Positions 7,485 through 23,375 of a DNA stretch of 23,375 nt are shown piece after piece (positions within the stretch are counted from its first letter, which is position 1; each line of letters begins with the position of its first letter). The DNA is from a virus, in the IMG/VR virus record IMGVR_UViG_3300027801_002890, positions 1 to 23,375 of that record, one strand, 5' to 3'. A program made the translations under genes and the position numbers. The notes beneath the pieces are model-generated. The model was not told the origin of the DNA. It made no database searches and was given only the letters and a program-made list of their open reading frames with translations.

Positions 7485-8150
7485 TTACATTCCATTTAAT
7501 AGTTCGAATACTGCGTCTATTGCTTCATGTCTGTGATTATCCGTTAATAAAGATTTATAAACAAATTTTGATGTTGAAATTTTAGGCACTTCATGGATAG
7601 CTGAGTAGTTCTTATCTTTTAGATCTATTTGTTGATTATCCCCTGTGAATATCATAGTAGAATTTTTACCTAACCTACTCAATACCATGGATAGTTGAGA
7701 CTTGGTTAAGTTCTGAAACTCATCAATAATACAAACACTATCCTCAAAGGTTCTTCCTCTAAAGTGAGCTAAGGATACCAACTCAATAGACTCATCTTTT
7801 TCCATTGAATCTAATTTTTCAGGTTTATTATAGACCTTTCTCATATTACTTCTAATTGGGACTAACCATGGTTCCATTTTTTCTCTCTCAGAACCAGGAA
7901 GAAATCCATTATCCTCTGTAGAAACTGTTGGTCTAGTAATAATAATTTTATTACATTGTTTCTTGAAGAATTGGTCTAGTGCGATCTGCACCGCTAGTAA
8001 TGTCTTACCACTCCCCGGTTTTCCAACAATAAAATTAAAAGGATGTCTTAATATTTCTGTTTTAGCCTTTTTCTGTTCTGGAGAAAGGGAAAGTGAAAAT
8101 CTCACAGCTCCTTTCGGTGGGGTTCTATCTTTATTATTTTTAGGTGACAT
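7485..8150 (-). CDS. phoH: PhoH-like P-loop ATPase
   Basis: The 221-residue product has a Walker A motif GKPGSGKT at 43-50, the PhoH-typical RPTVSTEDNGFLPGS segment at 73-87, a Walker B CIIDEFQN at 140-147 and a sensor-like FTGDNQQID at 168-176. This order is diagnostic of the PhoH family, widespread in marine and T4-like phages, with a predicted ATPase/helicase role linked to RNA or phosphate stress; the exact function is unsettled. Length is normal for a single-domain PhoH. The ATG overlaps the end of the epimerase gene by 11 bases, tying PhoH to the sugar operon in transcription. Confidence 0.9.
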   Translation of the reverse strand: MSPKNNKDRTPPKGAVRFSLSLSPEQKKAKTEILRHPFNFIVGKPGSGKTLLAVQIALDQFFKKQCNKIIITRPTVSTEDNGFLPGSEREKMEPWLVPIRSNMRKVYNKPEKLDSMEKDESIELVSLAHFRGRTFEDSVCIIDEFQNLTKSQLSMVLSRLGKNSTMIFTGDNQQIDLKDKNYSAIHEVPKISTSKFVYKSLLTDNHRHEAIDAVFELLNGM

Positions 8151-9156
8151 TTAATGTTTTTTTTATGTTATCTATTATTATTTTAGAAGGTTTTCCATTT
8201 GTCATATAGAAATCCTTCATTCTTGTGATTTTAGTGGAAGATACCCAATCTATAGGATCGTCAAGGTTCTTATACCTTACCCCATAATCTTTTTCTTCAA
8301 CTTCTATCCACTCAATACTATCTCTCATAACGAGACATTTCTTTCCAAAGAAAGGACTTGTTTTCATTAACCCACCCGAATCTGTAATTATGAATTTACA
8401 ACTAGAGAGGGCTTCTACCATTTCATTATATTTGGCCGGTGGCTTAACTATAATATTTTTTGGGAGAACAATGTCATTATTTTCTATAAAAGATTTTGTA
8501 CTATGATGTAAGTAGAAGTTAATAGGTTTGTTATATGACTCACAAAAAGAAAGAATCTTAGAGAAACTTTCTAAATTTAGATTTCCTTTTCGATGAATTG
8601 TCATAACAGGAGGATTCACAAAAGTGATATTCTTATCGTAATATCTATTAAGTAATTCATATTCTAAATCACCACACACTATCTCATTATTAAAAAAATC
8701 TTGTATGTGTCCTGTTTTTTTAGGGGTAAATTGAATCTCTGATGTTAAATCTGCAACTATCCTATTTAATTCCTCTGGAACTTTGATATCGTTACATCTT
8801 AGACCCGCCTCTATATGGGCGAAGGGGACTTTTAGTTTATAACAAACTAAAGAAGATGATAAGGTACTATTTGTGTCTCCATAGATTAATACAAAATCAG
8901 GATTTTCATCCTCTAAGATTTTTGTTAACTTCTCCATAGTCTGTGTTATGAAAAATACCTCACCACTATTTGATGTTTTAAGGTCATGATCAATATGGAG
9001 TGAAAACTCGTCTATAAAATAATCAGAAACATTTTCACTATAGTGTTGGTTAGTGTCAACAATGATGTGGTTAATCTCATTTTCGTTACAATAATCAAAA
9101 ATAGGTTTAACTTTTACATATTGAGGTCTAGTACCAATAACACTAAGAATCTTCAT
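8140..9156 (-). CDS. UDP-N-acetylglucosamine 2-epimerase family (WbpI/WecB-like)
   Basis: The 338-residue protein carries the family hallmarks: GTRPQ at 8-12, YGDTNS at 92-97, HIEAGLR at 114-120, PEELNR at 127-132, VMTIHRKGN at 184-192 and a C-terminal DSGGLMKTSPFFGKK element. The conserved acidic residues in EAGLR and PEELNR and the histidine in the HRK segment are those used for C2 epimerisation of UDP-HexNAc substrates. In the proposed pathway it converts UDP-GlcNAc3NAcA to UDP-ManNAc3NAcA (WbpI step), though a plain WecB reaction is possible. It is slightly shorter than typical (about 370). Its ATG lies inside the last codons of the dehydrogenase gene (14-base overlap). Confidence 0.88.
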   Translation of the reverse strand: MKILSVIGTRPQYVKVKPIFDYCNENEINHIIVDTNQHYSENVSDYFIDEFSLHIDHDLKTSNSGEVFFITQTMEKLTKILEDENPDFVLIYGDTNSTLSSSLVCYKLKVPFAHIEAGLRCNDIKVPEELNRIVADLTSEIQFTPKKTGHIQDFFNNEIVCGDLEYELLNRYYDKNITFVNPPVMTIHRKGNLNLESFSKILSFCESYNKPINFYLHHSTKSFIENNDIVLPKNIIVKPPAKYNEMVEALSSCKFIITDSGGLMKTSPFFGKKCLVMRDSIEWIEVEEKDYGVRYKNLDDPIDWVSSTKITRMKDFYMTNGKPSKIIIDNIKKTLNVT

Positions 9157-9952
9157 TTTTTCTCATTTTATTTCTTTCGCTTATTGTCGCACCCAAAACT
9201 TCACAAATACTACCGTTTTCTAACATTGTGTTATAAAGTGCTTGGGTGTCTTTAGGGAAGCAAGCTCCTCCATAACTAAGACTACCATCAGGTCCAGGTA
9301 TTGTTGTGTGCATTTCATTGACCCATCCATTATCTAAGATTAGATTTCTAACCATTCCATATCGAGAATCTAATTTACTACATAAGTCATACATCTCATT
9401 AAAAAATTGTATTTTAACTGAGTAAAAAGAATTTGCGAATATTTTCATAAGTTCAGACTCTGTAGATGTACATGTAGATATCTTTGCTTCTGGGAAATTT
9501 CTTGCGTATAAATCCATTAATCCAGTTAATTGTTCTTCGTTTTCACTATACCCTAGAACGATATGGGATTGGTCGGCGAAATCTTGATCACTAGTTCTGG
9601 CTGTTAAAAATTCAGGATTGTGTACTATCTCTAAATTATAAAGATGGTGAAGATTGAGGACTGTTTTAGGTTGGGTTGTACTTTTTATAATGATTAATCC
9701 TTTATAGTTTACATTATCTAATTTTTGTAAGACTTCATGTAGTGCACTATAATCATAACCTCTTAGTTCTGTAGAGTATAGAGTGGGTAAACAAAGAAAG
9801 ATAAAATCCGACTCCGACACCTCTTCAAAAGAGTCATATTTCTTGAATTTGTCATAACTCTTTACCGTGTATTGTTTGGTGGTGAACCATTTGGCAACAG
9901 CGTTACCAACAAAACCTCGACCCATAACACCAATTATTCTTTCGTCTTTCAT
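9143..9952 (-). CDS. Short UDP-sugar 6-dehydrogenase (WbpA/UGD-like, no C-terminal domain)
   Basis: The chosen ATG at 9952 follows the stop of the acetyltransferase gene by one base and gives 269 residues; an upstream ATG at 9985 would add 11 poorly placed residues. The Rossmann motif GRGFVG (11-16), NPEFLTART (112-120), Lys180 and Asn185 in the FANSFYSVKIQFFNE helix, and the catalytic Cys231 in GGACFPKDTQAL identify a UDP-glucose/UDP-GlcNAc 6-dehydrogenase. It would oxidise C6 to a uronate with NAD. Bacterial relatives are about 430 residues; here the protein stops about 40 residues after the catalytic cysteine, so the C-terminal UDP-binding domain is missing. The next gene starts at once, leaving no room for a lost exon-like remnant. 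Activity is therefore uncertain. Confidence 0.83.
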   Translation of the reverse strand: MKDERIIGVMGRGFVGNAVAKWFTTKQYTVKSYDKFKKYDSFEEVSESDFIFLCLPTLYSTELRGYDYSALHEVLQKLDNVNYKGLIIIKSTTQPKTVLNLHHLYNLEIVHNPEFLTARTSDQDFADQSHIVLGYSENEEQLTGLMDLYARNFPEAKISTCTSTESELMKIFANSFYSVKIQFFNEMYDLCSKLDSRYGMVRNLILDNGWVNEMHTTIPGPDGSLSYGGACFPKDTQALYNTMLENGSICEVLGATISERNKMRKNEDS

Positions 9953-9953
9953 T

Positions 9954-10361
9954 TTATTTATTAAATTTTTTAGCCGGCACCCCAACCCATATCTCTTTTT
10001 TAGGTATATTTTTTGTAACGACAGAACCTGCTCCTATCTTACAACCCTTCCCCAAAACAATATTAGGGAGTATTGTAGAATTTGCCCCTATTGACGAATC
10101 TTCCTGGACTACCGTAGGAGGTTCTTTTTTCCAAGCTCCGTTTGATGGGGGATTTTTATCGTTAGTGAACACTGTATGAGGACCAATAAATACATTATCT
10201 TCTATAATAATGTTTTCCGGAATAAACGACCCACAACCTATCCTACAATTTTTTCCTATCCTTACCTTATGACCAATTTCAACAAAAGCCCCTATTCTGG
10301 TTCCCTCGCCTATCTCTGCACTGTCATAAATGTTACTACTTTCATGTATATAAGTTTCCAT
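9954..10361 (-). CDS. Left-handed beta-helix N-acetyltransferase (WbpD-like)
   Basis: Starting at the ATG at 10361, four bases after the oxidoreductase stop, gives 135 residues; an ATG at 10388 would add nine residues within the upstream gene. Imperfect hexapeptide repeats ([IV]-G-x-x-x-x) run from about 11 to 62 and again from 84 to 118, forming the left-handed beta-helix of sugar acyltransferases. The loop HTVFTNDKNP (62-71) between them is typical of WbpD-type UDP-3-amino-sugar N-acetyltransferases, and VGVPAKKF closes the helix. In the pathway it acetylates the 3-amino group made by the neighbouring aminotransferase using acetyl-CoA. It is shorter than WbpD (about 190 residues), apparently lacking extra coils. 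Confidence 0.85.
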   Translation of the reverse strand: METYIHESSNIYDSAEIGEGTRIGAFVEIGHKVRIGKNCRIGCGSFIPENIIIEDNVFIGPHTVFTNDKNPPSNGAWKKEPPTVVQEDSSIGANSTILPNIVLGKGCKIGAGSVVTKNIPKKEIWVGVPAKKFNK

Positions 10362-10365
10362 ATTT

Positions 10366-11268
10366 CTAAATGTAAAAAGTTTGACCATCCAATCTTACTT
10401 CTTTCTGTCTTAGACCGTCGATTAATTTTATTGTAGGTTCTACGTCTTCAAGGGTGAACCCATTCCCTTTTAGTATTTCTTCATAACTTATTTTATGTAA
10501 CTCCGTAAACCCTGTCGAGAATTCTAACTCTTCTCCATCTATCTTGATTGACCTAAAGGGTTTCCATTCGTCCCATGGGAGGTCCTCCTTCATAATACTT
10601 AGATTATAGGTAACCTTAGCGTTCTCAAGGTGTAAAGTACCCTTACATCTCTTCCCTGTGGTTTCTACATTATAAGAGACAACATCCCCGAATATCCATA
10701 TTAACATATCGAAGAAATGTACACCTATATTTGTCACAACTCCACCTGACTTATCAGAATCACCCTTCCATGAGTAATCATACCAAACCCCTCTTGGTGT
10801 TATATAATCTAGTGTTACCTCATGTTGTATAAGAGGTGAACAGTTTTTATATTTTTCTTTGAGCTCTTTAATTAATGGGTGATGTCTAAGTTGAAGAATG
10901 TTGTATATTTTTTTACCCGTTTCTTTTTCTAAACTCTTTAACGATTGTAGGTGCTTATCTCTTAGGACTAATGGTTTTTCACAAATAACATCACACCCAT
11001 TTCTAAGTGATAAACGTATATGTGCATCGTGTAAGTAATTAGGACTACAAATTGAAACAAAATCAATACTGTCTTTATTCCTATACAAATGTCTATCGAA
11101 TCTTTCAGATTCTTTGAAGTATGAAGCCTCTGGAAAATATCTATCTATGTATCCCACTCCATCGTAAGGATCAAGAAGTGCAACCAAATCATTATTAGTG
11201 TGTTTTATCGCCTCAACATGTTTTGGTGCGATATATCCGCCAGCCCCTATAAGGGCGAAATTTTTCAT
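10366..11268 (-). CDS. Gfo/Idh/MocA-family UDP-sugar 3-oxidoreductase (WbpB-like)
   Basis: The preferred ATG at 11268 follows the aminotransferase stop after one base and gives a 300-residue protein beginning MKNFALIGAGGYIAPKH, the characteristic start of WbpB-type oxidoreductases; an ATG at 11286 would overlap upstream. The dinucleotide loop GAGGYIA is at 8-14 and the family EKP motif at 97-99. SGGVVTNIGVHFFDML contains the active-site His region typical of the C-terminal domain. WbpB oxidises C3 of the UDP-sugar uronate with NAD, producing the 3-keto substrate for the WbpE aminotransferase encoded next to it. Length is close to WbpB (about 316). The family call is strong, with specificity supported by context. 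Confidence 0.88.
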   Translation of the reverse strand: MKNFALIGAGGYIAPKHVEAIKHTNNDLVALLDPYDGVGYIDRYFPEASYFKESERFDRHLYRNKDSIDFVSICSPNYLHDAHIRLSLRNGCDVICEKPLVLRDKHLQSLKSLEKETGKKIYNILQLRHHPLIKELKEKYKNCSPLIQHEVTLDYITPRGVWYDYSWKGDSDKSGGVVTNIGVHFFDMLIWIFGDVVSYNVETTGKRCKGTLHLENAKVTYNLSIMKEDLPWDEWKPFRSIKIDGEELEFSTGFTELHKISYEEILKGNGFTLEDVEPTIKLIDGLRQKEVRLDGQTFYI

Positions 11269-11269
11269 A

Positions 11270-12388
11270 TTAGTGTTCGAATTCATTTATACAAGTTGTT
11301 ATAGTTTTTAATTCATCTTCACTTAAATGTGGAGAAACAGGTATATGTAAAACCTCTCTACATCTTTTTTCACATTCAGGTAATGATTGTTCGCCAAACA
11401 TTTCTAAGTAAACCGGTTGGTTGTGTAGTGGTATTGGCCAATACACAAATGTTTCTATCCCGTTTTTCGTTAGATGTTCTTGAAGTTCATCACGTCCTTC
11501 TACGATAAGAGTATACAAATACCAACTATGATTGTCAAGAGTATCAGTAGGATACGGTAAGGTGACTCTTGGGTTATTTATATTCTTAAAAAAATATTCT
11601 GCATTATATTGTCTTTTATCTAACCAGGTTTTAGACGCCCCATTCATAAGAACGGTTAAGAATCTAGCTTGTAGAGCATCAAGTCTTAAGTTACCACCTA
11701 CCATTTCATGATAGTATCTTTTTTTAGAACCATGAGCTCTAATCATTTTTATTTTTTTATAAGTTTCTTCGTCATCTGTTATGACAATCCCACCATCTCC
11801 AAGACAACCCAATGTTTTGGCTGGGAAGAAACTAAAAGCCGCGGCTAGTGACCTAGTACCTGAATGACCCCCTTCAGGATAGTACGAACCAAAAGATTCC
11901 GCACAATCCTCAAATAAAATCACTCCTTTACTATCACATAGTGTATTAAGTTCGTCTATTGATTTAGTTTCACCAAATAAGTGAACAAACATTATTGCTT
12001 TTGTATTTTCAGTCCAGGCTTCCTTAAATTCCTTTACTGAAGGGTGAAAGGAGTTTGGTGCATTGTCTACAAATATTGGATTGAGTCCCGCAACAAGAAT
12101 TGCTTCCGAACTTGCGATAAAGGTATAGGAAGGTACTAACACGTCAGATCCTTTGGGGAGGTCTAATGACATTAGTATTGCCAATAACCCATCGGTACCA
12201 CTTGAAACCCCGATTGCGTATTTTGAACCAGTATAGTCAGCAAATTCCTCCTCAAATCGACTAACAGAAGGCCCATTCACATAAATTCCGTCTAAAAGGG
12301 ATTTATCTAATTCATTACTAAGATAATCTTTATAAGGTAAGAGTAACTTAGGATAGTCAAAAAATTTAATAGTTTCTTTTGTTGGCAT
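11270..12388 (-). CDS. DegT/DnrJ/EryC1 PLP aminotransferase (WbpE-like)
   Basis: The 372-residue protein is full length for the family. Key elements are SSGTDGLL (62-69) for phosphate binding, VPSYTFIAS (85-93), FEDCAESFGS (159-168) with the Asp that contacts the PLP ring nitrogen, and SFFPAKTLGCLGDGG (186-200) with the Schiff-base Lys191. These are the standard marks of sugar aminotransferases. In this setting it would transfer an amino group from glutamate to the C3 ketone made by the WbpB-like enzyme. Its start overlaps the WbpG-like gene by 23 bases, while its stop is one base before the WbpB-like start, so the two partner enzymes are translationally linked. Confidence 0.9.
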   Translation of the reverse strand: MPTKETIKFFDYPKLLLPYKDYLSNELDKSLLDGIYVNGPSVSRFEEEFADYTGSKYAIGVSSGTDGLLAILMSLDLPKGSDVLVPSYTFIASSEAILVAGLNPIFVDNAPNSFHPSVKEFKEAWTENTKAIMFVHLFGETKSIDELNTLCDSKGVILFEDCAESFGSYYPEGGHSGTRSLAAAFSFFPAKTLGCLGDGGIVITDDEETYKKIKMIRAHGSKKRYYHEMVGGNLRLDALQARFLTVLMNGASKTWLDKRQYNAEYFFKNINNPRVTLPYPTDTLDNHSWYLYTLIVEGRDELQEHLTKNGIETFVYWPIPLHNQPVYLEMFGEQSLPECEKRCREVLHIPVSPHLSEDELKTITTCINEFEH

Positions 12389-13499
12389 ATTTTAAGTAAA
12401 AGCTTTTAGGTACTAAATCTAATCTATAAAGAACATAAAAGAAAGGTCTAAGTTTCTCAAATAATCTTTTGTATGTTGGGTAGTGGGTGTAATCCTTCTT
12501 CTCCCTATTCATCATTTCTTCAAATTGAGAGTCTGTGAGGTCAAGTCGTTTTTTCATTTCTGAGATTAAACTATTGTCCATTTCTTTTTCTTTGGTAATT
12601 TCTATCATTGCCAGTTTCCTACTCATTTGTCCCGATCTTATTAAGGCAGAATACTCACACTTCCGTAAGTCAATTCCAAACTTATTAGGTAAATAAAAAT
12701 TATTAACAAAGTAAGCGGAACGATTTTCCATATGATGACCACCATACCATTCCCACCCATATTCTTTATGTAAGAAATCTTTAGTTTCTTCTTTATCGTA
12801 ATCCATATAATATAAAGGACGTATTCTTTTAATTCTTTTAACCAATAATTGTCTCATCCATGGCCAGAAATCCATAAGTGGTAAACTAGTTAATTTCCCT
12901 TTTCCAAAAAGTTTATTGATTGACCTAATATATCTAGCATCTTGGTAGAACCAACCTTGTGGTGATATACCTTCAGTTCTAAATGAATGACCGTTCCAAA
13001 TCCATTTAATGTTGTATTCTTCAGCTGCTTTATAAAGGGTTGATCCAATACCTAAATCAGTTCCTGACTCTAAATCAGGAACTGACGCCAAAAATAAAGA
13101 ACGTACCAAATCATTATATTCTTTATTGTCAACAACATGAGTGTAGAGGTCAATATCCAAAGCATTAATCATTTTCTCTATATTCTCCACTGCTATTTTA
13201 GAATTCCAAGTATTGTCAAAATGGACAGCCAGTGGTCGTAACCCGGTTTTAACTGCTAAATGTAGTAAAAATGAAGAATCACAACCCCCACTAACACCTA
13301 CAACAAGATCATATTTCTTACCCTTACCATCTTTTTTAATCTTTTGTATAATTCCGTTTAATATTTTTCCTCCCTTTTCCCCTGTTGGGTACTCTATGTT
13401 TAAGTCCTCATCTCTCTCGCAGTAGTTACATACCCCTTCGACGTTAAACTCAATATGAGGTATTGTTTCGTCGTATATACATTTTTTACAGATTTTCAT
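12366..13499 (-). CDS. N-acetyl sugar amidotransferase (WbpG/PseA-like)
   Basis: The 377-residue protein begins with a Cys4 motif (Cys4, Cys7, Cys24, Cys27 in MKICKKC and CNYC), the zinc-finger-like start of WbpG-type enzymes. An ATP-pyrophosphatase loop VGVSGGCDSS (67-76) follows, with the SGGxDS signature that adenylates the substrate. A segment around 175-195 (WIWNGHSFRTEGISPQGW) and long conserved C-terminal helices fit the N-acetyl sugar amidotransferase family. WbpG uses ammonia delivered by HisH2/HisF2 to turn an acetamido group into an acetamidino group. The HisF and HisH homologues are directly upstream, and their 14-base overlap with this gene fits a three-part complex. Confidence 0.9.
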   Translation of the reverse strand: MKICKKCIYDETIPHIEFNVEGVCNYCERDEDLNIEYPTGEKGGKILNGIIQKIKKDGKGKKYDLVVGVSGGCDSSFLLHLAVKTGLRPLAVHFDNTWNSKIAVENIEKMINALDIDLYTHVVDNKEYNDLVRSLFLASVPDLESGTDLGIGSTLYKAAEEYNIKWIWNGHSFRTEGISPQGWFYQDARYIRSINKLFGKGKLTSLPLMDFWPWMRQLLVKRIKRIRPLYYMDYDKEETKDFLHKEYGWEWYGGHHMENRSAYFVNNFYLPNKFGIDLRKCEYSALIRSGQMSRKLAMIEITKEKEMDNSLISEMKKRLDLTDSQFEEMMNREKKDYTHYPTYKRLFEKLRPFFYVLYRLDLVPKSFYLKYANKRNY

Positions 13500-14247
13500 A
13501 GTTTTTTATAATTTTGTCAATATTAGTTTGTTTTGGGAATTTAATTAGGACTCCCATATTTTTTTTAGAATAAACACACATACTACCGATGGCAACACCA
13601 GAACTACCATTAAGAATGCCATCTTCAATGTCTTCTAGTTTCCCAACCCCACCACATGAGATAACTGGTAAATGTGTTTTATGAGTTATCTCATTTATTA
13701 AGTCATTATCCATACCTTCCCAAGTGCCGTCCCTATCTACAGAATATAATAGAATTTCTCCCACACCCAAATCCTCCAACTTTCTAATATACTCTACAGG
13801 GTTTAAGTTTACTGTTTTTTTAGTAGAATGTCTATAAATTTTATTAACTCCCCATATATTCTTTTTTACGTCAACTGAGGCTACGATACTTTGACTTCCA
13901 AATAACTCAACCGACTTTCTTACAGTCTCAGGGTCGTCAAATAATATATCATTAACTACGACCTTCTCAATACCTAATTGAAATAGGGTTCTAATGTCTT
14001 CAATTGTTTTGATACTACCCCCATAACATAAAGGCATGAAACATTCTCGAGTGATTTTACGTATATCGTTAAAGGGAATCTCCTTTTTAGAAATATCAAT
14101 AAGGAGTAGTTCGTCAACTTCCTTTCCATTGAATATTTTTATTGCATTAACTGCGTCTCCAACATACGACGGATTGTTAAATTTAACGGTCTTCACTAAA
14201 GACCCATCTTTAAGTAATAAACACGGCATTATTCTAGGTCTTAACAT
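13486..14247 (-). CDS. HisF-like synthase subunit for sugar amidination (HisF2)
   Basis: The 253-residue TIM-barrel protein is clearly HisF-related (CYGGSIKTIEDIRTLF, VDVKKN, SCGGVGKLEDI). However, the catalytic Asp11 of histidine-pathway HisF, in the CLDVKDG motif, is leucine here: residues 9-15 read CLLLKDG. Asp126 in VASVDVKK, equivalent to Asp130, is kept. This CLLLK form is, as I recall, typical of HisF2 proteins encoded beside WbpG in O-antigen loci, where the subunit channels ammonia and does not cyclise an imidazole. It starts one base after the HisH stop. No other histidine genes are nearby, in agreement with a sugar role. Confidence 0.9.
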   Translation of the reverse strand: MLRPRIMPCLLLKDGSLVKTVKFNNPSYVGDAVNAIKIFNGKEVDELLLIDISKKEIPFNDIRKITRECFMPLCYGGSIKTIEDIRTLFQLGIEKVVVNDILFDDPETVRKSVELFGSQSIVASVDVKKNIWGVNKIYRHSTKKTVNLNPVEYIRKLEDLGVGEILLYSVDRDGTWEGMDNDLINEITHKTHLPVISCGGVGKLEDIEDGILNGSSGVAIGSMCVYSKKNMGVLIKFPKQTNIDKIIKNYENL

Positions 14248-14248
14248 A

Positions 14249-14848
14249 TTATAAGTTTATAAATTTTTCCATTAGGTCCATTCCATATTTGTGACTTTTT
14301 TCTGGGTGGAACTGAACACCAAAAATATTATCTTTAGAAACCCCAGAAACAAACTCAATGCCGTAATTTGTTTTTAACATTATATTATCTTTTTCGATAC
14401 ATTCTACGTAATAAGAATGCACAAAATAAAAACGAGAATTGTTATCACATAGTTCATTAGTTATCGGAGACGCGACGTTCCATCCCATATGAGGCACCTT
14501 TAACGATTTATCAACAAACTTAAATTTCTTACAATCCCCCTTTATCCAACCTAATCCACCTAACTTACCTTCTTCACTTTTATCCATTAATAACTGCATC
14601 CCTAAACAAATACCTAAAATTGGTTTCTTATTGTTTAATACTTGTTTATTTAATTCATCTAATAGACCATAGTCTTTTAGGTTCTTCATACCATTATCAA
14701 AAGTGCCCACTCCAGGAAGGATTAACTTATCTACTAATAATAGTTCAGATTTTTTTTTAATAATTTTGGTTTTATGGCATCCTAAATAGTTTATCATTGA
14801 TTCCACAGAGCCCACATTACCCATTCCATAGTCGATTATACCTATCAT
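14249..14848 (-). CDS. HisH-like glutamine amidotransferase (HisH2)
   Basis: The 199-residue protein is a class I glutamine amidotransferase. The nucleophile Cys81 lies in GICLGMQLL (79-87) and the triad partners His181 and Glu183 are in FHPEKS. The N-terminal IDYGMGNVGSV (5-15) and LPGVGTFDNGM (44-54) are HisH signatures. It hydrolyses glutamine and passes ammonia to the HisF-like partner encoded next, which in turn would supply WbpG. The ATG overlaps the formyltransferase stop by four bases (ATGA). Length matches bacterial HisH. Confidence 0.92.
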   Translation of the reverse strand: MIGIIDYGMGNVGSVESMINYLGCHKTKIIKKKSELLLVDKLILPGVGTFDNGMKNLKDYGLLDELNKQVLNNKKPILGICLGMQLLMDKSEEGKLGGLGWIKGDCKKFKFVDKSLKVPHMGWNVASPITNELCDNNSRFYFVHSYYVECIEKDNIMLKTNYGIEFVSGVSKDNIFGVQFHPEKSHKYGMDLMEKFINL

Positions 14849-15792
14849 TTTATATTTTCAAATTTTGTACCAAACCTCATTTTATTAATTACATTTTCTT
14901 TTGATCCTTCACCTCTAATATTTACAATTTTTAAGGCATTTTTTCCACAACAGACTATAATTGAATCGTTATCCGCCTTTGAAATTAACCCCTTTGGTCC
15001 ATAATGAGTTTCGTTAATAATGATAGACTCAAGGATATAGTATTTTTTATCTCCAATGTGAGTAAAAGCGCCAGGATAAGGATCTGACTGAGACCTTATA
15101 AAATTATGAATGGTAATATTATCACCACCCCAATCGATTAAACCATCTTCTGGTCTTCTAATTGAACAATAACTGACATTATTTTTTGATTGAGTTATTC
15201 TATTATTGGTTTTATTTAGAATTTTTTTATAATTAGAATCCATCATATCTAAAGACATTTCTTCTACCTTACTTAGTAAGGTTGCAATTGTGTGGTTATT
15301 ACCTATTGTTAATTCTCTTTGGTCAATAATGTCCCCCGTATCAACCCCATCAGACAAATAGAATAAACTTATTCCAGTTTTTTTCTCTCCATTTATTACT
15401 GCCCATACTAAAGGGGCAAATCCCCTATATTGCGGTAGTAGGGAAGCGTGAAGACCAATTAATCCGTTTGGGACTTTGTTCAGTACTTCAGTTGGGATAA
15501 TCCAGTACCAACCAGATACGATGATTAGTTCAGGTTTTTCTTCATCAATAATGGTAGATAATTCTGATGGATTACCCAATACATCAATAGAGATTTTATT
15601 TTTGGTGGCAAAATTTTGAAATTTGTGGTAGGAACTCCTATTGTCCTTCGTATCGTCTATAGTTATAATCTTACAAATACTATTTTCATCAATTGAGTGT
15701 AACTTTTTCAGAATAGAGTAACCAAGTTTTTTTGAACCTATAAAGAATACTTTATTTATCACAGTATAGTCTGGAGTTTCGTTGAGTTCCAT
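14845..15792 (-). CDS. Methionyl-tRNA formyltransferase-fold sugar N-formyltransferase
   Basis: The product is up to 315 residues and belongs to the formyltransferase fold that uses N10-formyltetrahydrofolate. [10 protein letters not shown] (115-124) and [11 protein letters not shown] (147-157) carry the catalytic His115 and Asp151. The Asn that normally sits two residues before this His is Gly113 here. A C-terminal segment with YPGAFT resembles the Fmt/ArnA second domain. The sugar-gene setting suggests N-formylation of an amino sugar, like ArnA or perosamine formyltransferases, more than of Met-tRNA. The ATG at 15792 lies 34 bases inside the SDR gene; a GTG at 15762 overlapping the SDR stop (GTGA) is an equally good start and removes ten residues. 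Confidence 0.85.
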
Positions 15793-16736
15793 TTGTCTTC
15801 TATATATTTTGCTGTTTTTAATATTCCTTCTTCTAAATCTATTTTTGAACTAAACCCTAGGACTTCTTTTGCTTTTTCTACACTAGGTATTCTAATAGCC
15901 ACATCTGCAGACAATGGAGGGTCAAAGACAATCTTAGATTTGGATTCTAGAACTCTACAAATAGTTTGAGCTAATCCTAAAATAGTCACAACGGCTCTAG
16001 GGTTACCGATATTAAAACTTTCTCCTATTGCTTTAGGACTTGTTATACAACTCATTAAACAGTCAACAAAGTCGTCAACATAACACCAAGCACGAATCTG
16101 GTTTCCATCACCATCAATGTGTATATCTTCTCCTCTAAGAGCTTTTTCGATAAAAATTTGTAATGCTCCATTAGCTGATTGTCCTGGACCATAAACATTA
16201 AATGGTCTTATGGTTACTATAGGTAATCCATACTCTGTTGTGTAAGCCTTGGCTAAGTGTTCTCCAGCTAATTTACTAACAGCGTAAACCCATCTTGCCT
16301 CTCCAGCGGAACCGGCCACAGTCTGGTCTTCTTCTTTCGATTTGAAAGCCATGGATCCAAATACTTCCGATGTAGAGAAATCAATTACCCTATCAGGTAT
16401 GGTTAATTGTTTACAAACCTCAAGAACATTGGCGGTACCTAACATATTGACTCTCATTGTTTTTACTGGGTGTTTTATAACGGTATCTATACCGGCTATT
16501 GCAGCGGCATGAATAACAATATCAGGTACGTCAGAACTCATAGATACAAATAGTTTATCGTAGTCTAAAATGTCTCCTTTTATTATAGTTAAGTTTTTAT
16601 GATTACTTAGACCACTTGAAGATAGTGTATCGCGCTCAAAGTTATCATACACAGTTATTAAATGAGTGTCAATTAATCTCTTAATTATTGTATTTGCAAT
16701 AAACCCTGCTCCTCCAGTTATAAATATTTTTTTCAT
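15759..16736 (-). CDS. Extended SDR sugar-nucleotide epimerase/dehydratase/decarboxylase
   Basis: The 325-residue protein is a classic extended short-chain dehydrogenase. The NAD loop GGAGFIA is at 8-14, the active-site strand STSEVFG at 121-127, and the Tyr151/Lys155 pair lies in [15 protein letters not shown] and [11 protein letters not shown] further on match the substrate domain of nucleotide-sugar enzymes. Ser-Glu in STSEV and the RW-x-Y-x-x-SK context recall the UDP-glucuronate decarboxylase half of ArnA, but the same pattern occurs in 4-epimerases. It overlaps the preceding glycosyltransferase by four bases and the formyltransferase by up to 34. It likely makes or reshapes a UDP- or dTDP-sugar; the exact reaction is open. 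Confidence 0.85.
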
Positions 16737-18019: not shown

Positions 18020-18761
18020 ATACGACTTTTGATACTTCTTGTAATTTTTGGACATACTTCCAATACTTCGTTTCCCTTATATCGGTTAGGTCTTCTATTG
18101 GCCAAATCCAATTATTTCTTTCTCCTTCGAGATAATGTGAACCATGTCCTGGTGGTTCCCCATTTGCCCAAGCCTTTCTTCTCCTCTCTAGAGTTTCTTC
18201 TCTTTCTTCTTTAGTTTTGGTATTACCATAATTTATCATCATTCCTTCTATTATCCCTAATCTTTGGCCGGGAAAGGAAACGTCGTCAGCTAAGTAACGT
18301 AAAACAGGGTTATATTTGTGAATCATATTAAATTTATTCATAGTACCATAATGAAAATAAGTGTTAAAAGGGTCTTTTATTTCTCTTTCCTCTCCAGTGT
18401 TAAAAAAGTTAACACATTCTATCTGAGCAAGATTAAACCCCCTTCTATCCAAACGAGACAAAGCATCGTGTAATGGTTCAATAGTCACTGGAAATAAATC
18501 ACAACCATTGTAGATTGCCCAATCGGGTTTCTCTCGGTGAAGGGTCTCCACAATATCATTTTGTAACACCCTCAAATCAAAAGAATCACCAGTATCTAAT
18601 CTATGTGATGGGACTTTATTTTCTTGGAGGTATTCCCAAGACCCATCAGTAGACATATTATCTATGATATACGGTTCTAACTTATTTTGTTTACAGTATT
18701 CTAATTTTAGTGGAAGGTACTCTCTTTCGTTCCACACTGTTAATATACACATTACTCTCAT
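18009..18761 (-). CDS. GT2-like (GT-A fold) glycosyltransferase
   Basis: The 250-residue protein starts MRVMCILTVWNEREYLP, the nucleotide-binding strand of the Glyco_tranf_2_4-type family, followed by IIDNMSTDGSWEYL (32-45), a conserved 'DN-x-S-x-DGS' element. YNGCDLFPV (around 84-92) replaces the usual acidic DxD-like motif with NGCD. A C-terminal RRRKAWANGEPPGHGSHY stretch is typical of this group. It is cytosolic, with no signal peptide. The ATG overlaps the stop of the double-domain glycosyltransferase by four bases. Family assignment is good; donor and acceptor are unknown. Confidence 0.77.
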   Translation of the reverse strand: MRVMCILTVWNEREYLPLKLEYCKQNKLEPYIIDNMSTDGSWEYLQENKVPSHRLDTGDSFDLRVLQNDIVETLHREKPDWAIYNGCDLFPVTIEPLHDALSRLDRRGFNLAQIECVNFFNTGEEREIKDPFNTYFHYGTMNKFNMIHKYNPVLRYLADDVSFPGQRLGIIEGMMINYGNTKTKEEREETLERRRKAWANGEPPGHGSHYLEGERNNWIWPIEDLTDIRETKYWKYVQKLQEVSKVVYGE

Positions 18762-20311
18762 TCTACTACGTTTATAAATTGTCCTATAATACTCCCCTTC
18801 CTATTATCACCTAAAGCTCCTCCTATAAAAGGAAAAAGCCTCTCTCTATAGTCTTCTTGGAGTCTTTCTAGTTTTTCATCACTTTTATCTCTTGTTTTAC
18901 TTTCATAATGATACGCAACCGCGTCACTAACAAATAAATTTACTTTTCCCTCTAGCAACACACTAAAGTTCAATTCTGCGTCTTCAAAACACTCAATGTA
19001 GGTTGGGTTAAACCCACCCACTTTAATAAACAAATCTCTCTCAATTAATAAAAAAGCTCCAGTATTACCTACTACCGGATTAGTACCTTCTATTCGATGT
19101 CGATAACCTTGACGTAAATTATAATGAGTAATTTCAATTCTACTCATACCTCTATCACTTAACCACTCTTTTTTTAACCATAATAACATACCTCCATGTT
19201 GTACCGTGTTGTCTTCAAAATGAAGTCTCGCACCAACAGTACCAACCTTCCGTTTATTTTTTTGCCAAACAGAAACCATTCTACTAATGGCGTCATTAAT
19301 TAACTCGATATCATTATTACAGAATAAAACTAACTCCGTATCATTCGACACATATTCATAAACTACCTCGTTATTTATTTGGGCAAAATTATAATAATCA
19401 AACTCCACCAATGTAGTCTTATCATTACTAGAACAAAACTCCTTAATTTTTTCTAGATTCGAAGGATCACTACCCGTATCCGCAACAATTATTTCGAAAT
19501 TAGTATATGTAGTCTTTTCGTATATTGAGGTCAAACAATTAAATAGAATATCGATATTATCTTTTGTTGGTATTATTATTGAAAGTTTGGGTTGCTTCTT
19601 AATAACCACACGCTTTTTAGGGTAAAATACTTCAACCCCAACCTCAGAAGGTAATTTGTCTGAGTATCGTTTAGCGAAATCCAGTCTATTTTCTTCCCAT
19701 TGTTCGTTTGTTTGACCAATAGATTTATGTGTGATTCTAATATTAGTAATTACCCCAACCTTAACACCTTCTAAATGGTTTGAGAAAGTGAAGTCGATAT
19801 CATAGAAATGAAATCCACTAACCTCCTCATTAAATTGTTTCTTAATCTTCCTCCTATCAATGGCGAAAAATAATCCATCCAATATCACTACAGGGATTAT
19901 ATTTGTTAAAACTGGTTCAGAGTATTTTGATTCCCATGTTTTACCATCTTGAGAATGATTAACAATCCCAACCATATTACTTAGTGGTTGGTTTATGTCT
20001 TCCCACCAACTACCACTTTCTGTTAGTTTTCTTGTTCCAGCTAAACCAAGAATCCCATAATCTGACTCATTAAAATGATTTAATAATTTTTTACCCCATT
20101 TTTTGGCATTGAATATTATATCATCGTGGCAGAAAAGAATAATATCATTTGTGGACTCTTTTAGTGCTTTATTATAAATTTTTGTAAGTGATTCCCCATT
20201 AGGGTTTTCATAAGACAAAATTTGTATATTTCTAATACCAGAAGTTTCTTTTATGTGTTCTATATAAGACTCGTCTAATTTTCTTGTGCTAAATACTACT
20301 GTTAAATTCAT
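18758..20311 (-). CDS. Tandem double GT2 glycosyltransferase
   Basis: Starting at the ATG at 20311, just after the dUTPase stop, the protein has 517 residues; an ATG at 20335 would add eight residues read from within the dUTPase gene. It contains two GT-A modules. The first (about 1-230) has FCHDDIIF as its metal-binding region and HFYDIDFTF downstream. The second (about 245-505) opens LSIIIPTKDNIDILFNCLTS and has FCNNDIEL as the DxD-like site and GGFNPTYIECFEDAELNFSV, the conserved 'E-D-x-D/E' acceptor element. Two-module enzymes of this type often add two sugars in alternation or in sequence. No transmembrane segment is present. It is the largest sugar gene in the window. Confidence 0.85.
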   Translation of the reverse strand: MNLTVVFSTRKLDESYIEHIKETSGIRNIQILSYENPNGESLTKIYNKALKESTNDIILFCHDDIIFNAKKWGKKLLNHFNESDYGILGLAGTRKLTESGSWWEDINQPLSNMVGIVNHSQDGKTWESKYSEPVLTNIIPVVILDGLFFAIDRRKIKKQFNEEVSGFHFYDIDFTFSNHLEGVKVGVITNIRITHKSIGQTNEQWEENRLDFAKRYSDKLPSEVGVEVFYPKKRVVIKKQPKLSIIIPTKDNIDILFNCLTSIYEKTTYTNFEIIVADTGSDPSNLEKIKEFCSSNDKTTLVEFDYYNFAQINNEVVYEYVSNDTELVLFCNNDIELINDAISRMVSVWQKNKRKVGTVGARLHFEDNTVQHGGMLLWLKKEWLSDRGMSRIEITHYNLRQGYRHRIEGTNPVVGNTGAFLLIERDLFIKVGGFNPTYIECFEDAELNFSVLLEGKVNLFVSDAVAYHYESKTRDKSDEKLERLQEDYRERLFPFIGGALGDNRKGSIIGQFINVVE

Positions 20312-20312
20312 T

Positions 20313-20948
20313 TTATTTATTACCTGTAGAACCAAGACCGGAAACCCCTCTCTCAGTTTTTTTATTATTATTATTATTATGTGTAAAATCTACAAACTCT
20401 CCTGTAACTACAGGGCATAAACAAGCTTGAGCTATTCTATCACCTTTGTCTATTTTTATTTCTTGATTACTAAAATTTGCTAGTATTACTTTTACCTCTC
20501 CAATATAACCTTGATCAACAGTACCTGGAGAATTAAGAACAAATAGATTTTTTCTATGGGCCAATCCAGAACGACTCCTTACCTGGATCTCAAAACCTCT
20601 AGGAATATCAAAACTTAGTCCGGTACCTATCATCTCTACTTCTTTTGGTTTGATAACTTTTTCTTCCGAGGACCTCAAATCAAAACCACTGTCCGACTTA
20701 TAAACATACTCAGGGTTTTCATTTTCGGATTCATTAGAATATCCTAATGATACCATTATTTTTTCTGGGGTGCCGTTTATATTAGACCCCACTTCTAGAG
20801 TTGAGTTATAGTTATCGGTTGCGTCTGATATTTGATTAGCTAGTGACGATAACTCTTCGAGAGAGGCGTCGTCAGACAAAGAGTCATATTTGTCAACTAA
20901 ATGACCGAAAATCTTTTCTATTTTATTTGAGTCTTCGTGATTTGACAT
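20313..20948 (-). CDS. dut: dUTP diphosphatase with N-terminal extension
   Basis: The 211-residue protein holds all five trimeric dUTPase motifs: SDSGFDL (85-91), RSRSGLA (124-130), GTVDQGYIGE (142-151), GDRIAQ (169-174) and RGVSGLGSTG (200-209). It hydrolyses dUTP to dUMP and pyrophosphate, keeping uracil out of DNA and supplying dTTP synthesis. Phage dUTPases are usually about 140-150 residues; here about 65-75 extra residues precede the core, acidic and helical, with no recognised domain. A run of five Asn (191-195) between motifs 4 and 5 is encoded by an AAT/AAC-type microsatellite. It lies 3 bases after the exonuclease gene. Confidence 0.92.
   Translation of the reverse strand: MSNHEDSNKIEKIFGHLVDKYDSLSDDASLEELSSLANQISDATDNYNSTLEVGSNINGTPEKIMVSLGYSNESENENPEYVYKSDSGFDLRSSEEKVIKPKEVEMIGTGLSFDIPRGFEIQVRSRSGLAHRKNLFVLNSPGTVDQGYIGEVKVILANFSNQEIKIDKGDRIAQACLCPVVTGEFVDFTHNNNNNKKTERGVSGLGSTGNK
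20362..20380. repeat. ATT/AAT trinucleotide microsatellite inside dut
   Basis: About six tandem ATT units (AAT on the coding strand) encode the Asn run between dUTPase motifs 4 and 5. The run keeps the reading frame when whole units are gained or lost, so tract length could vary among relatives without breaking the gene. It lies in the loop before the flexible C-terminal arm. Confidence 0.8.
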
Positions 20949-20951
20949 AGT

Positions 20952-21650
20952 TTATAAATTTTTAACTTTTTTAATTATTTTAATTAGAGAACTTACATCT
21001 TTTTCACAATAATGTATAATTTCAGTCTTCTTATCATTATACCAAGATTGATGCATATTTTCTCCAGTTACCTCACCTTCTTTAGGTGAAGTTATTCCCA
21101 TAACGGAAGTTACTAGATGTAAAGAAGATAAACCTTTATATGAACCAAAATTCCAAAGTTCCTTTGTATCCAAGGCTTTAATCTCCCAAGGTTTCGTATC
21201 ATGAGATGGTAATAAAGACGGTGGATTGATGTTGTTAATTAACATTCTTTTACCTAAATAAGGTAAGTCAAAATTCTTAATGTTGTGACCACATAAAGTA
21301 AAACCAACCTTCTCTATTTTATTTAGTAGTTGTGTTACTTGGATAAGGTCGTCTATCTCATTACCACTACAGAAGGATTGTAACTTTTCTTCTTCTCCGT
21401 TTATAAACCCTACACTGACACATACAATCTTACCAAATTCAGGTAGTAATCCAGAATATTTTTCATATAGAAATTCACAGTCCTCATCCCCATCTTCGGG
21501 ATAATGTCTTCTAAAATAAGAACATCCTATGGAATTCCACAAATCCCATAAAATTTTATCCATCTTTTTTAATTCGTTGGAGTCTTTGTAAGAACCTGCA
21601 GTTTCTATATCTAGAAACAATAATTTATTTTCGTTTATATTTTCTAACAT
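20952..21650 (-). CDS. DEDDy 3'-5' exonuclease (PolB-exonuclease-like)
   Basis: The 232-residue protein is a DnaQ-like exonuclease. Motif I is FLDIETAG with Asp14 and Glu16, motif II is CGHNIKNFDLPYL with Asp128, and motif III is HYCEKDVSSL with Tyr214 and Asp218, the DEDDy form. EFGKIVCVSVGF (71-82), KPWEIKALDTKELWNFGSYK and the GITSPKEGEV segment match the stand-alone 'PolB exonuclease-like' family (PF10108 type) that I recall as common in Bacteroidota. It would degrade single-stranded DNA or RNA 3' ends in replication or repair. It is 12 bases downstream of the broken glycosyltransferase and 3 bases before dut, so it sits in a small nucleotide-metabolism pair. Confidence 0.86.
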   Translation of the reverse strand: MLENINENKLLFLDIETAGSYKDSNELKKMDKILWDLWNSIGCSYFRRHYPEDGDEDCEFLYEKYSGLLPEFGKIVCVSVGFINGEEEKLQSFCSGNEIDDLIQVTQLLNKIEKVGFTLCGHNIKNFDLPYLGKRMLINNINPPSLLPSHDTKPWEIKALDTKELWNFGSYKGLSSLHLVTSVMGITSPKEGEVTGENMHQSWYNDKKTEIIHYCEKDVSSLIKIIKKVKNL

Positions 21651-21662
21651 TTTACAAATATA

Positions 21663-22331
21663 CTATTTTTTAATTAAGCTTTTGTACCAAGACGCTCTTT
21701 CTTTAGTTACTTCTTTAATGTGGTATTTTTGGACGTCTTCGTATAGTTGTTCACCTAAATCCTTAATCATATTTGGATTATTGATGAGTTTTTTAATATT
21801 TTTATACCATTGTTTATGGTTTTTTGATGTTGGAATCAATAGCGAGTTTTTACCATCAACACAATCGATATTGTAAGGGCCAAAGTCCTGTGCGATTAGG
21901 GCTTTTTTATGAAAACCGGCTTCAATAACTTTTAATTGTGATTTAACTCTATTAAAGGTGTGTTCTTTTAAGGGGGCCAAAGAAATATCCATAAGGTTAT
22001 AGTTTGTGGCATAAGTTGTGATTGGTTTTGTCCAAACTCTCCTATAGAAATCCCCACCATCGCCTTTACGTTTCTTAAATTCTAATAATGAGTCAATGTC
22101 TTTTTGTTCTTTGACTAGTTGATAGTCGTTTGTAAAAATCTGTTCATAATTGTACCACACAGACTCTTTTGGTTCTATTGATCTAGTGGTTTGTTCTCCA
22201 GTTACTGAGTTAATTTCAGTCATTGATCCCCTAGTATCAAAACCACATAAAACAAATTGAAATTTATTTTTTAGTGTTTGGTCTGTGGTGATTTTATGTA
22301 TATTACCTCTAAGTATTTCTAGGTCGGACAA
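21663..22331 (-). CDS. Glycosyltransferase, C-terminal part of a frameshifted GT-B gene
   Basis: The 222 residues from the first ATG in this frame contain the C-terminal GT-B domain, including FNRVKSQLKVIEAGFHKKALIAQ (about 126-148), the donor-binding 'K-x-x-x-E' type element of GT4 transferases. The frame stays open upstream to 22439 and there reads VFPNAIDPNKKQF and VRVGWLGGSSHLSDLE, the expected linker and first strand of the C-terminal domain, continuing the N-terminal fragment encoded at 22412-22855. The ATG at 22331 is therefore probably internal. If the frameshift is real, this half might be expressed alone but would lack the acceptor domain. It ends 12 bases before the exonuclease gene. 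Confidence 0.75.
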   Translation of the reverse strand: MSDLEILRGNIHKITTDQTLKNKFQFVLCGFDTRGSMTEINSVTGEQTTRSIEPKESVWYNYEQIFTNDYQLVKEQKDIDSLLEFKKRKGDGGDFYRRVWTKPITTYATNYNLMDISLAPLKEHTFNRVKSQLKVIEAGFHKKALIAQDFGPYNIDCVDGKNSLLIPTSKNHKQWYKNIKKLINNPNMIKDLGEQLYEDVQKYHIKEVTKERASWYKSLIKK

Positions 22332-22411
22332 GTGAGAAGACCCCCCTAACCAACCAACCCTAACTAGGTCGGATTCTTCGGGATTGGATTGAAACTGTTT
22401 CTTATTTGGGT

Positions 22412-22855
22412 CTATTGCGTTTGGAAAGACCTCATGTTCTTATTATACTTCCTAAGTTCCTTGGCAAAAACTTCAGTAGTAGTTGTTACGTACTGAGCAT
22501 TTTTTAGGTTATCAACTATTTTTTCACCAAGTTTGTGTTCTTTTATCATTGGGTAAGCGGGGTGGTCTTTCCCTGGGTCCCAATAATCGTCCAAATCCAT
22601 TATAGTTATAATACCCCATTTCTTACAATCTTCTAATAAACGTAGACAATTCGCCCAATCACCCATTCCTCTATGGAAATGAACAATATCAAAACTTTGC
22701 CAATAGGTATCTCTATTTTTCCAAGGGTCATAATTAATATCCACCTTAAATTCGTTAGGGTAATATTTTTCAAGCGCTATGTGGGGATCGATTGACCTAA
22801 AAGAACCAACTCCTGTTCTATCTGACGGAACTACTAAGATTTTTACTTTGTTCAT
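22412..22855 (-). CDS. Glycosyltransferase, N-terminal part of a frameshifted GT-B gene
   Basis: The 147 residues begin MNKVKILVVPSDRTGVGSFR and cover the N-terminal Rossmann-like domain of a GT4-type transferase (FDIVHFHRGMG at 55-65, IIMDLDDYWDPG-like segment around 90, VTTTTEVFAKEL near 126-137). The frame then runs into a TAG at 22412-22414. A shift by one base between about 22430 and 22439 joins it to the frame that ends at 21663, giving a full-length transferase of about 397 residues; the span 22855-21663 is one base short of a whole number of codons. The simplest reading is a one-base deletion, either true or a sequencing error. It is the first minus-strand gene, starting at the divergent spacer. 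Confidence 0.75.
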   Translation of the reverse strand: MNKVKILVVPSDRTGVGSFRSIDPHIALEKYYPNEFKVDINYDPWKNRDTYWQSFDIVHFHRGMGDWANCLRLLEDCKKWGIITIMDLDDYWDPGKDHPAYPMIKEHKLGEKIVDNLKNAQYVTTTTEVFAKELRKYNKNMRSFQTQ

Positions 22856-22966: not shown

Positions 22967-23375
22967 ATGGCAATACAAAATTACTACTTTAATAACCTCG
23001 ATGCTTACATAAGTTATGACTCTTTTTGGGATTTTAATCTTTCAGATGATGAGAGAAATTATAACAAAGAAGTTATATATAATTCATCGATAATGTACTA
23101 TAGTGCAGGTACTACTACTTTTTCAGATTCATTCTATTCTTATAAATTACCTGTAGTAATGGACCTAAACGATCCCGAATGTTCACTACAAATAGACACT
23201 GTTACTAAAAATGATGATGGAACAATATCCAATAGAGGGACAATAACAAACCAAGATGCGGGAGATGGACCTATTAACCCTGGGACTTTTTATTCAGCAA
23301 ATACCTTAGTCAGTAAGATGGCTTGGAGTTTATCTGAGGTTACTGATGGGCAAATAATAGATAATGCCGCTTTGT
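22967..23375 (+). CDS. Hypothetical protein, likely virion-associated, 3' end cut by window edge
   Basis: An ATG at 22967 opens a plus-strand frame that runs to the window end without a stop (at least 136 residues). The product begins MAIQNYYFNNLDAYISY and is rich in Tyr, Asn, Ser, Thr and Asp with few Lys or Arg, a composition typical of phage structural or tail-associated proteins and similar in flavour to the protein at the left edge. No catalytic motif or signal peptide is seen. It is the only plus-strand gene here and probably starts a separate transcription unit. The start is preceded by an A-rich leader (AGAAATAAAATAC) with no Shine-Dalgarno. Confidence 0.72.
   Translation, partial: MAIQNYYFNNLDAYISYDSFWDFNLSDDERNYNKEVIYNSSIMYYSAGTTTFSDSFYSYKLPVVMDLNDPECSLQIDTVTKNDDGTISNRGTITNQDAGDGPINPGTFYSANTLVSKMAWSLSEVTDGQIIDNAAL

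Follow-up and report, generated by a model that had tools for sequence, protein, structure and literature searches.

This locus raises the question of whether a glycosyltransferase encoded in two reading frames of a phage contig is one gene or two, and what put its halves out of register. The sequence studied, hereafter the window, is the 23,375-nucleotide IMG/VR virus record IMGVR_UViG_3300027801_002890, a single contig. An earlier note, made from the sequence alone, had read two overlapping frames as one GT4-type transferase of about 397 residues, interrupted by a shift of one base between about 22430 and 22439. The features concerned are the following:

22412–22855, minus strand: N-terminal half of the glycosyltransferase (frame A), from the ATG at 22855 to the TAG at 22414–22412, 147 residues; matches positions 24–115 of phrog_7162
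21663–22439, minus strand: C-terminal half of the glycosyltransferase (frame B), an open frame; matches positions 117–305 of phrog_7162
22412–22439, minus strand: overlap of frames A and B, 28 nucleotides, containing the frame break at about codon 141

The two frames belong to one gene, in which the reading frame breaks a single time, at about codon 141. Frames A and B match successive parts of phrog_7162, a glycosyltransferase profile of 309 positions, with E-values of 8e-10 and 4.8e-25, respectively. They are therefore two parts of one protein, and the combined match extends over most of the profile (24–115 and 117–305 of 309). The frames are offset by one reading-frame step, with frame B one step back, in the -1 direction. 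In most aligned relatives, a residue E precedes the x-FPNAID motif, and the window reads that residue in frame B, which places the break at roughly 22433–22437 and within the interval proposed earlier. The DNA alignment between the window and one of its two nearest relatives, L002 (3300006921_004083), needs only one single-column gap besides the gaps common to both, and the protein of L002 has 397 residues from its ATG, the length that the earlier note had predicted with one base restored. Judging from the fold described below, the break probably lies near the boundary of the N-terminal and C-terminal Rossmann domains. The first common start codon in frame B past the stop of frame A is a TTG at 22331, within a conserved WLGGSSHL loop that follows the opening strand of the C-terminal domain. 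A C-terminal piece translated on its own would thus miss the start of its domain.

Two IMG/VR scans, one with each separate half, identified 18 loci, among which L002 and L011 are on the same contig. Both halves lie in a single open frame at 17 of these 18 loci, the exception being L009. The nearest relatives, L002 and L003 (3300006735_006281), both have the gene unbroken. L002 shares 80% identity with the N-terminal half and 86% with the C-terminal half (the latter spanning residues 1–256) in an open frame of 412 codons; the corresponding values for L003 are 73% and 77%, in an open frame of 402 codons. Both relatives have the gene order of the window, with an opposite-strand gene and then the exonuclease, dUTPase, and GT2 genes, but differ from it in that the glycosyltransferase is one open frame. 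With a whole-protein scan and a search of bacterial and archaeal genomes added, the set grew to 107 loci. L009 alone among them has its pieces spread over more than one frame, a count that provides no fair break rate because whole-protein ranking favours unbroken copies. A fairer second scan used the alignment of the N-terminal half only and returned 80 loci with 66 distinct DNA slices, many of them on contigs shared with the whole-protein scan. The reading frame runs through the C-terminal half at 77 of these 80 loci; two others run off their contigs, and in one (L117) the N-terminal half has an early in-frame stop, unrelated to the break in the window. A break after the N-terminal half was thus found in none of the 77 readable copies (95% upper bound, 4.7%). 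This comparison with relatives, suggested in the earlier note as a check, revealed no homologues that naturally encode two separate proteins.

We took an AlphaFold model of the intact L002 protein (mean pLDDT 73.2, pTM 0.72) as a stand-in for the window protein. It has two Rossmann-like domains, as in GT-B enzymes of the GT4 type, and a Foldseek search of the PDB matched it to the solved structures of GlgM, BshA, MshA, and PglA (E 1e-11 to 1e-8, query TM 0.53–0.62). These proteins resemble the model in fold, yet share only 10–13% identity with it; we take all four to be GT4 enzymes, one PDB title naming GT4. A PDB search with the enzyme sequence found no relative. Neither half reached the Pfam gathering scores: the N-terminal half scored 14.1 of the 28.5 bits needed for Glyco_transf_4 (22.5 for intact L002), and the C-terminal half 21.4 of the 27 bits needed for Glyco_trans_1_4 (20.4 for intact L002). 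The GT4-type assignment made earlier is thus upheld by the fold of the L002 model but falls below the curated Pfam cut-offs, and the enzyme is accordingly filed by its fold and its PHROG, not as a Pfam member. Intact L002 matches phrog_7162 with an E-value of 1.1e-38. Gene 164 of Escherichia phage phi92, a putative example of phrog_7162, matches 98% of the C-terminal half, but only distantly (25% identity), and the window differs from it in having a broken frame.

The genes that follow on the same strand are intact:

20952–21650, minus strand: PolB-type 3'-5' exonuclease-like gene (Pfam PF10108), intact and colinear in relatives
20313–20948, minus strand: dUTPase gene (Pfam PF00692), intact and colinear in relatives
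18758–20335, minus strand: glycosyltransferase with two GT2-like domains (Pfam PF13712 and PF00535), intact

We checked the frames across the window against open frames of at least 80 codons from L002, L003, and L021, the last covering 16.5 kb of the contig behind L003. Every window gene matched in this way (E up to 1e-15) is in one frame, except the glycosyltransferase. The 27 counted genes span 98% of the window. A formyltransferase gene at 14845–15792 is without a match in L021; the flanking genes there are separated by about 480 bases. A plus-strand frame at 22967–23374 is the start of an open frame of 1112–1168 codons in L002 and L003; the part seen in the window has no PHROG match.

The region 8140–16736 is a glycan gene cluster containing a WecB-like epimerase, a short sugar dehydrogenase, an acetyltransferase, an oxidoreductase, an N-acetyl sugar amidotransferase (TIGR03573, above its cut-off), the formyltransferase, and a dehydratase/epimerase. 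By eye, two genes at 13486–14848 look like HisF/HisH partners of the amidotransferase, and 11270–12388 looks like an aminotransferase. The sugar dehydrogenase (9143–9985) has 280 residues against a model of 413 positions, of which it matches 67–297. Its counterpart on the contig behind L003 is short too, in a 313-codon open frame uninterrupted by stops, so the short form looks natural. The cluster presumably resembles pathways for amidated or acetamido uronic acids in bacterial O antigens. The glycosyltransferase at 21663–22855 most likely adds one sugar to the glycan that its neighbours make, or else to a target on the virion or on DNA.

Constraint on the gene has been normal to either side of the break, up to the present or until very recently. 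Across 94 relatives, 70 alignment columns are conserved at 95% or more, and the window retains every one of them, a count that left out 13 of the 107 loci (11 partial or multi-piece matches and two open frames of at least 470 codons). In a three-way comparison, the nonsynonymous distance on the window branch was 0.057 for the N-terminal half and 0.040 for the C-terminal half, versus 0.066 and 0.053 on the sister branch of L002, and the window-branch values of four neighbouring genes ranged from 0.020 to 0.082. These distances are given without a ratio to synonymous ones, synonymous sites being saturated or nearly so. A pseudogene of some age is rejected by the retention of all 70 conserved columns and by a nonsynonymous rate that is not raised.

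What broke the frame has to be judged from the site itself and from the state of the gene around it. The 28-nucleotide overlap and a required shift in the -1 direction speak for programmed -1 ribosomal frameshifting or transcriptional slippage, which would produce a short and a full-length protein. However, the overlap has no X-XXY-YYZ heptamer in register, in line with the absence of a classical slippery site remarked on earlier, and no homopolymer of at least four nucleotides. The sole in-register X-XXY-YYZ in frame A is at 22504, about 65 nucleotides upstream, with stops of frame B intervening. Recoding is not conserved either, since the gene is in one frame in both nearest relatives and in almost the whole family, and we reject a programmed frameshift as extremely improbable. 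Phase variation classically affects glycosyltransferase genes, and the earlier note had listed it among its options; slippage of a repeat tract would then switch the enzyme on and off. That idea fares no better, because the break site has neither a homopolymer of at least four nucleotides nor a simple repeat, and we give it hardly any credence. The absence of heptamer, homopolymer, and simple repeat disfavours programmed frameshifting, transcriptional slippage, and tract-based phase variation alike. A pattern of the junction with a variable gap had no matches in IMG/VR, so that no switching population was shown; promoter-like and terminator-like scans and a repeat search gave nothing useful. 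The two halves might also be translated separately and jointly form a split GT-B enzyme, given a break near the domain boundary and the internal TTG at 22331. Part of the fold would be missing with this start inside the WLGGSSHL loop, and no relative split likewise was found in the sets of 18, 107, and 80 loci, making such an assembly exceedingly unlikely. Taken more broadly, the proposition that the break is real and that a working enzyme is still made, via recoding without a classical slippery sequence or via assembled halves, is highly improbable. GT-B enzymes bind donor and acceptor between their two domains. Read at face value, the sequence would yield an N-terminal domain of 147 residues plus, at most, a fragment initiated at the internal TTG, and neither product should be active because of this binding mode.

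On balance, a one-nucleotide error in a single metagenomic contig is the probable cause of the break, with the phage itself then presumably encoding the usual product of about 397 residues. This explanation is favoured by the relatives encoding one protein (17 of 18, and 77 of 80 in the N-terminal-half scan), by the lack of decay (70 of 70 columns, with nonsynonymous distances on the window branch not above those of L002), and by the break being the only one among the window genes comparable with colinear relatives. A single isolated indel is unremarkable. Indel errors usually fall in homopolymers, and the location of the break outside one counts against an error and keeps a real, young mutation in play. 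The rarity of breaks among contigs of the family (none of 77, upper bound 4.7%) likewise counts against it. A true and very recent loss of function, in the phage's genome or in a subpopulation, is accordingly a serious possibility; it would make a null allele of the gene that opens the minus-strand run and leave the glycan missing or altered, though we hold it to be the less probable one. The gene is probably dispensable, its PHROG being classed as moron/auxiliary and several other glycan genes lying nearby, and a site without an error-prone homopolymer would suit a real mutation. Against this, selection shows no sign of being relaxed on the window branch, which would require a very young mutation, and no second copy was found, the junction pattern having no matches in IMG/VR in a search from which records very near the window were possibly absent. 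An error and a recent null allele fit the homology, conservation, and colinearity alike. Neither an exact 33-base pattern from the C-terminal half, run against IMG/VR, nor megablast of the whole window against 50,697 phage records returned a match. Literature searches found no report of a frameshift in a phage-encoded glycosyltransferase and none on the indel error; passages of PMC12619734 served as background.

Three homologues of the glycosyltransferase carry an intein-like insertion of 377–379 residues at the same site:

L145, 3017–4147: intein-like insertion with a LAGLIDADG domain
L117, 3017–4147: intein-like insertion with a LAGLIDADG domain
L009, 2885–4021: intein-like insertion with a LAGLIDADG domain

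The insertions interrupt the C-terminal domain in its glycine-rich loop, with WLGG(S/A) or YLAGS on one side and SH on the other; this site is empty in the window. Inteins start with C and end in GN before S, and the three insertions likewise begin with C and end in GN before S. All three score above the cut-off of Pfam LAGLIDADG_3 (28.0 to 36.5 versus 22.5 bits). Of the models for inteins themselves, two gave matches, both under their cut-offs: TIGR01445, the intein N-terminal model, with L009 alone and the Pfam intein splicing model with L145 alone. In L145, an open stretch of 799 codons spans enzyme and insert without interruption. The insertions of L145 and L117 are 84% identical, and that of L009 shares about 50–54% identity with both. 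A PDB sequence search with the L009 intein found nothing, and a structure model based on three sequences was too poor for use (mean pLDDT 45.8, pTM 0.33). Two of the carriers have interruptions of their own in the N-terminal half, namely a frame change at a run of T at about 2621–2636 in L009 and an in-frame TAA at 2543 in L117; these may be sequence errors or mark decayed intein hosts. The inteins described in passages of PMC5874633 and PMC5050341 are mostly in nucleic-acid enzymes, and our literature search found none reported in glycosyltransferases in titles or the openings of abstracts.

In summary, the frame break is of little consequence by itself: a single gene call in this contig is not to be taken for a pair of genes or for a switch. 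A true null allele would represent a wild phage dropping one step of its glycan pathway. The intein-like LAGLIDADG element in the glycine-rich loop of a glycosyltransferase may matter more than the frame break.
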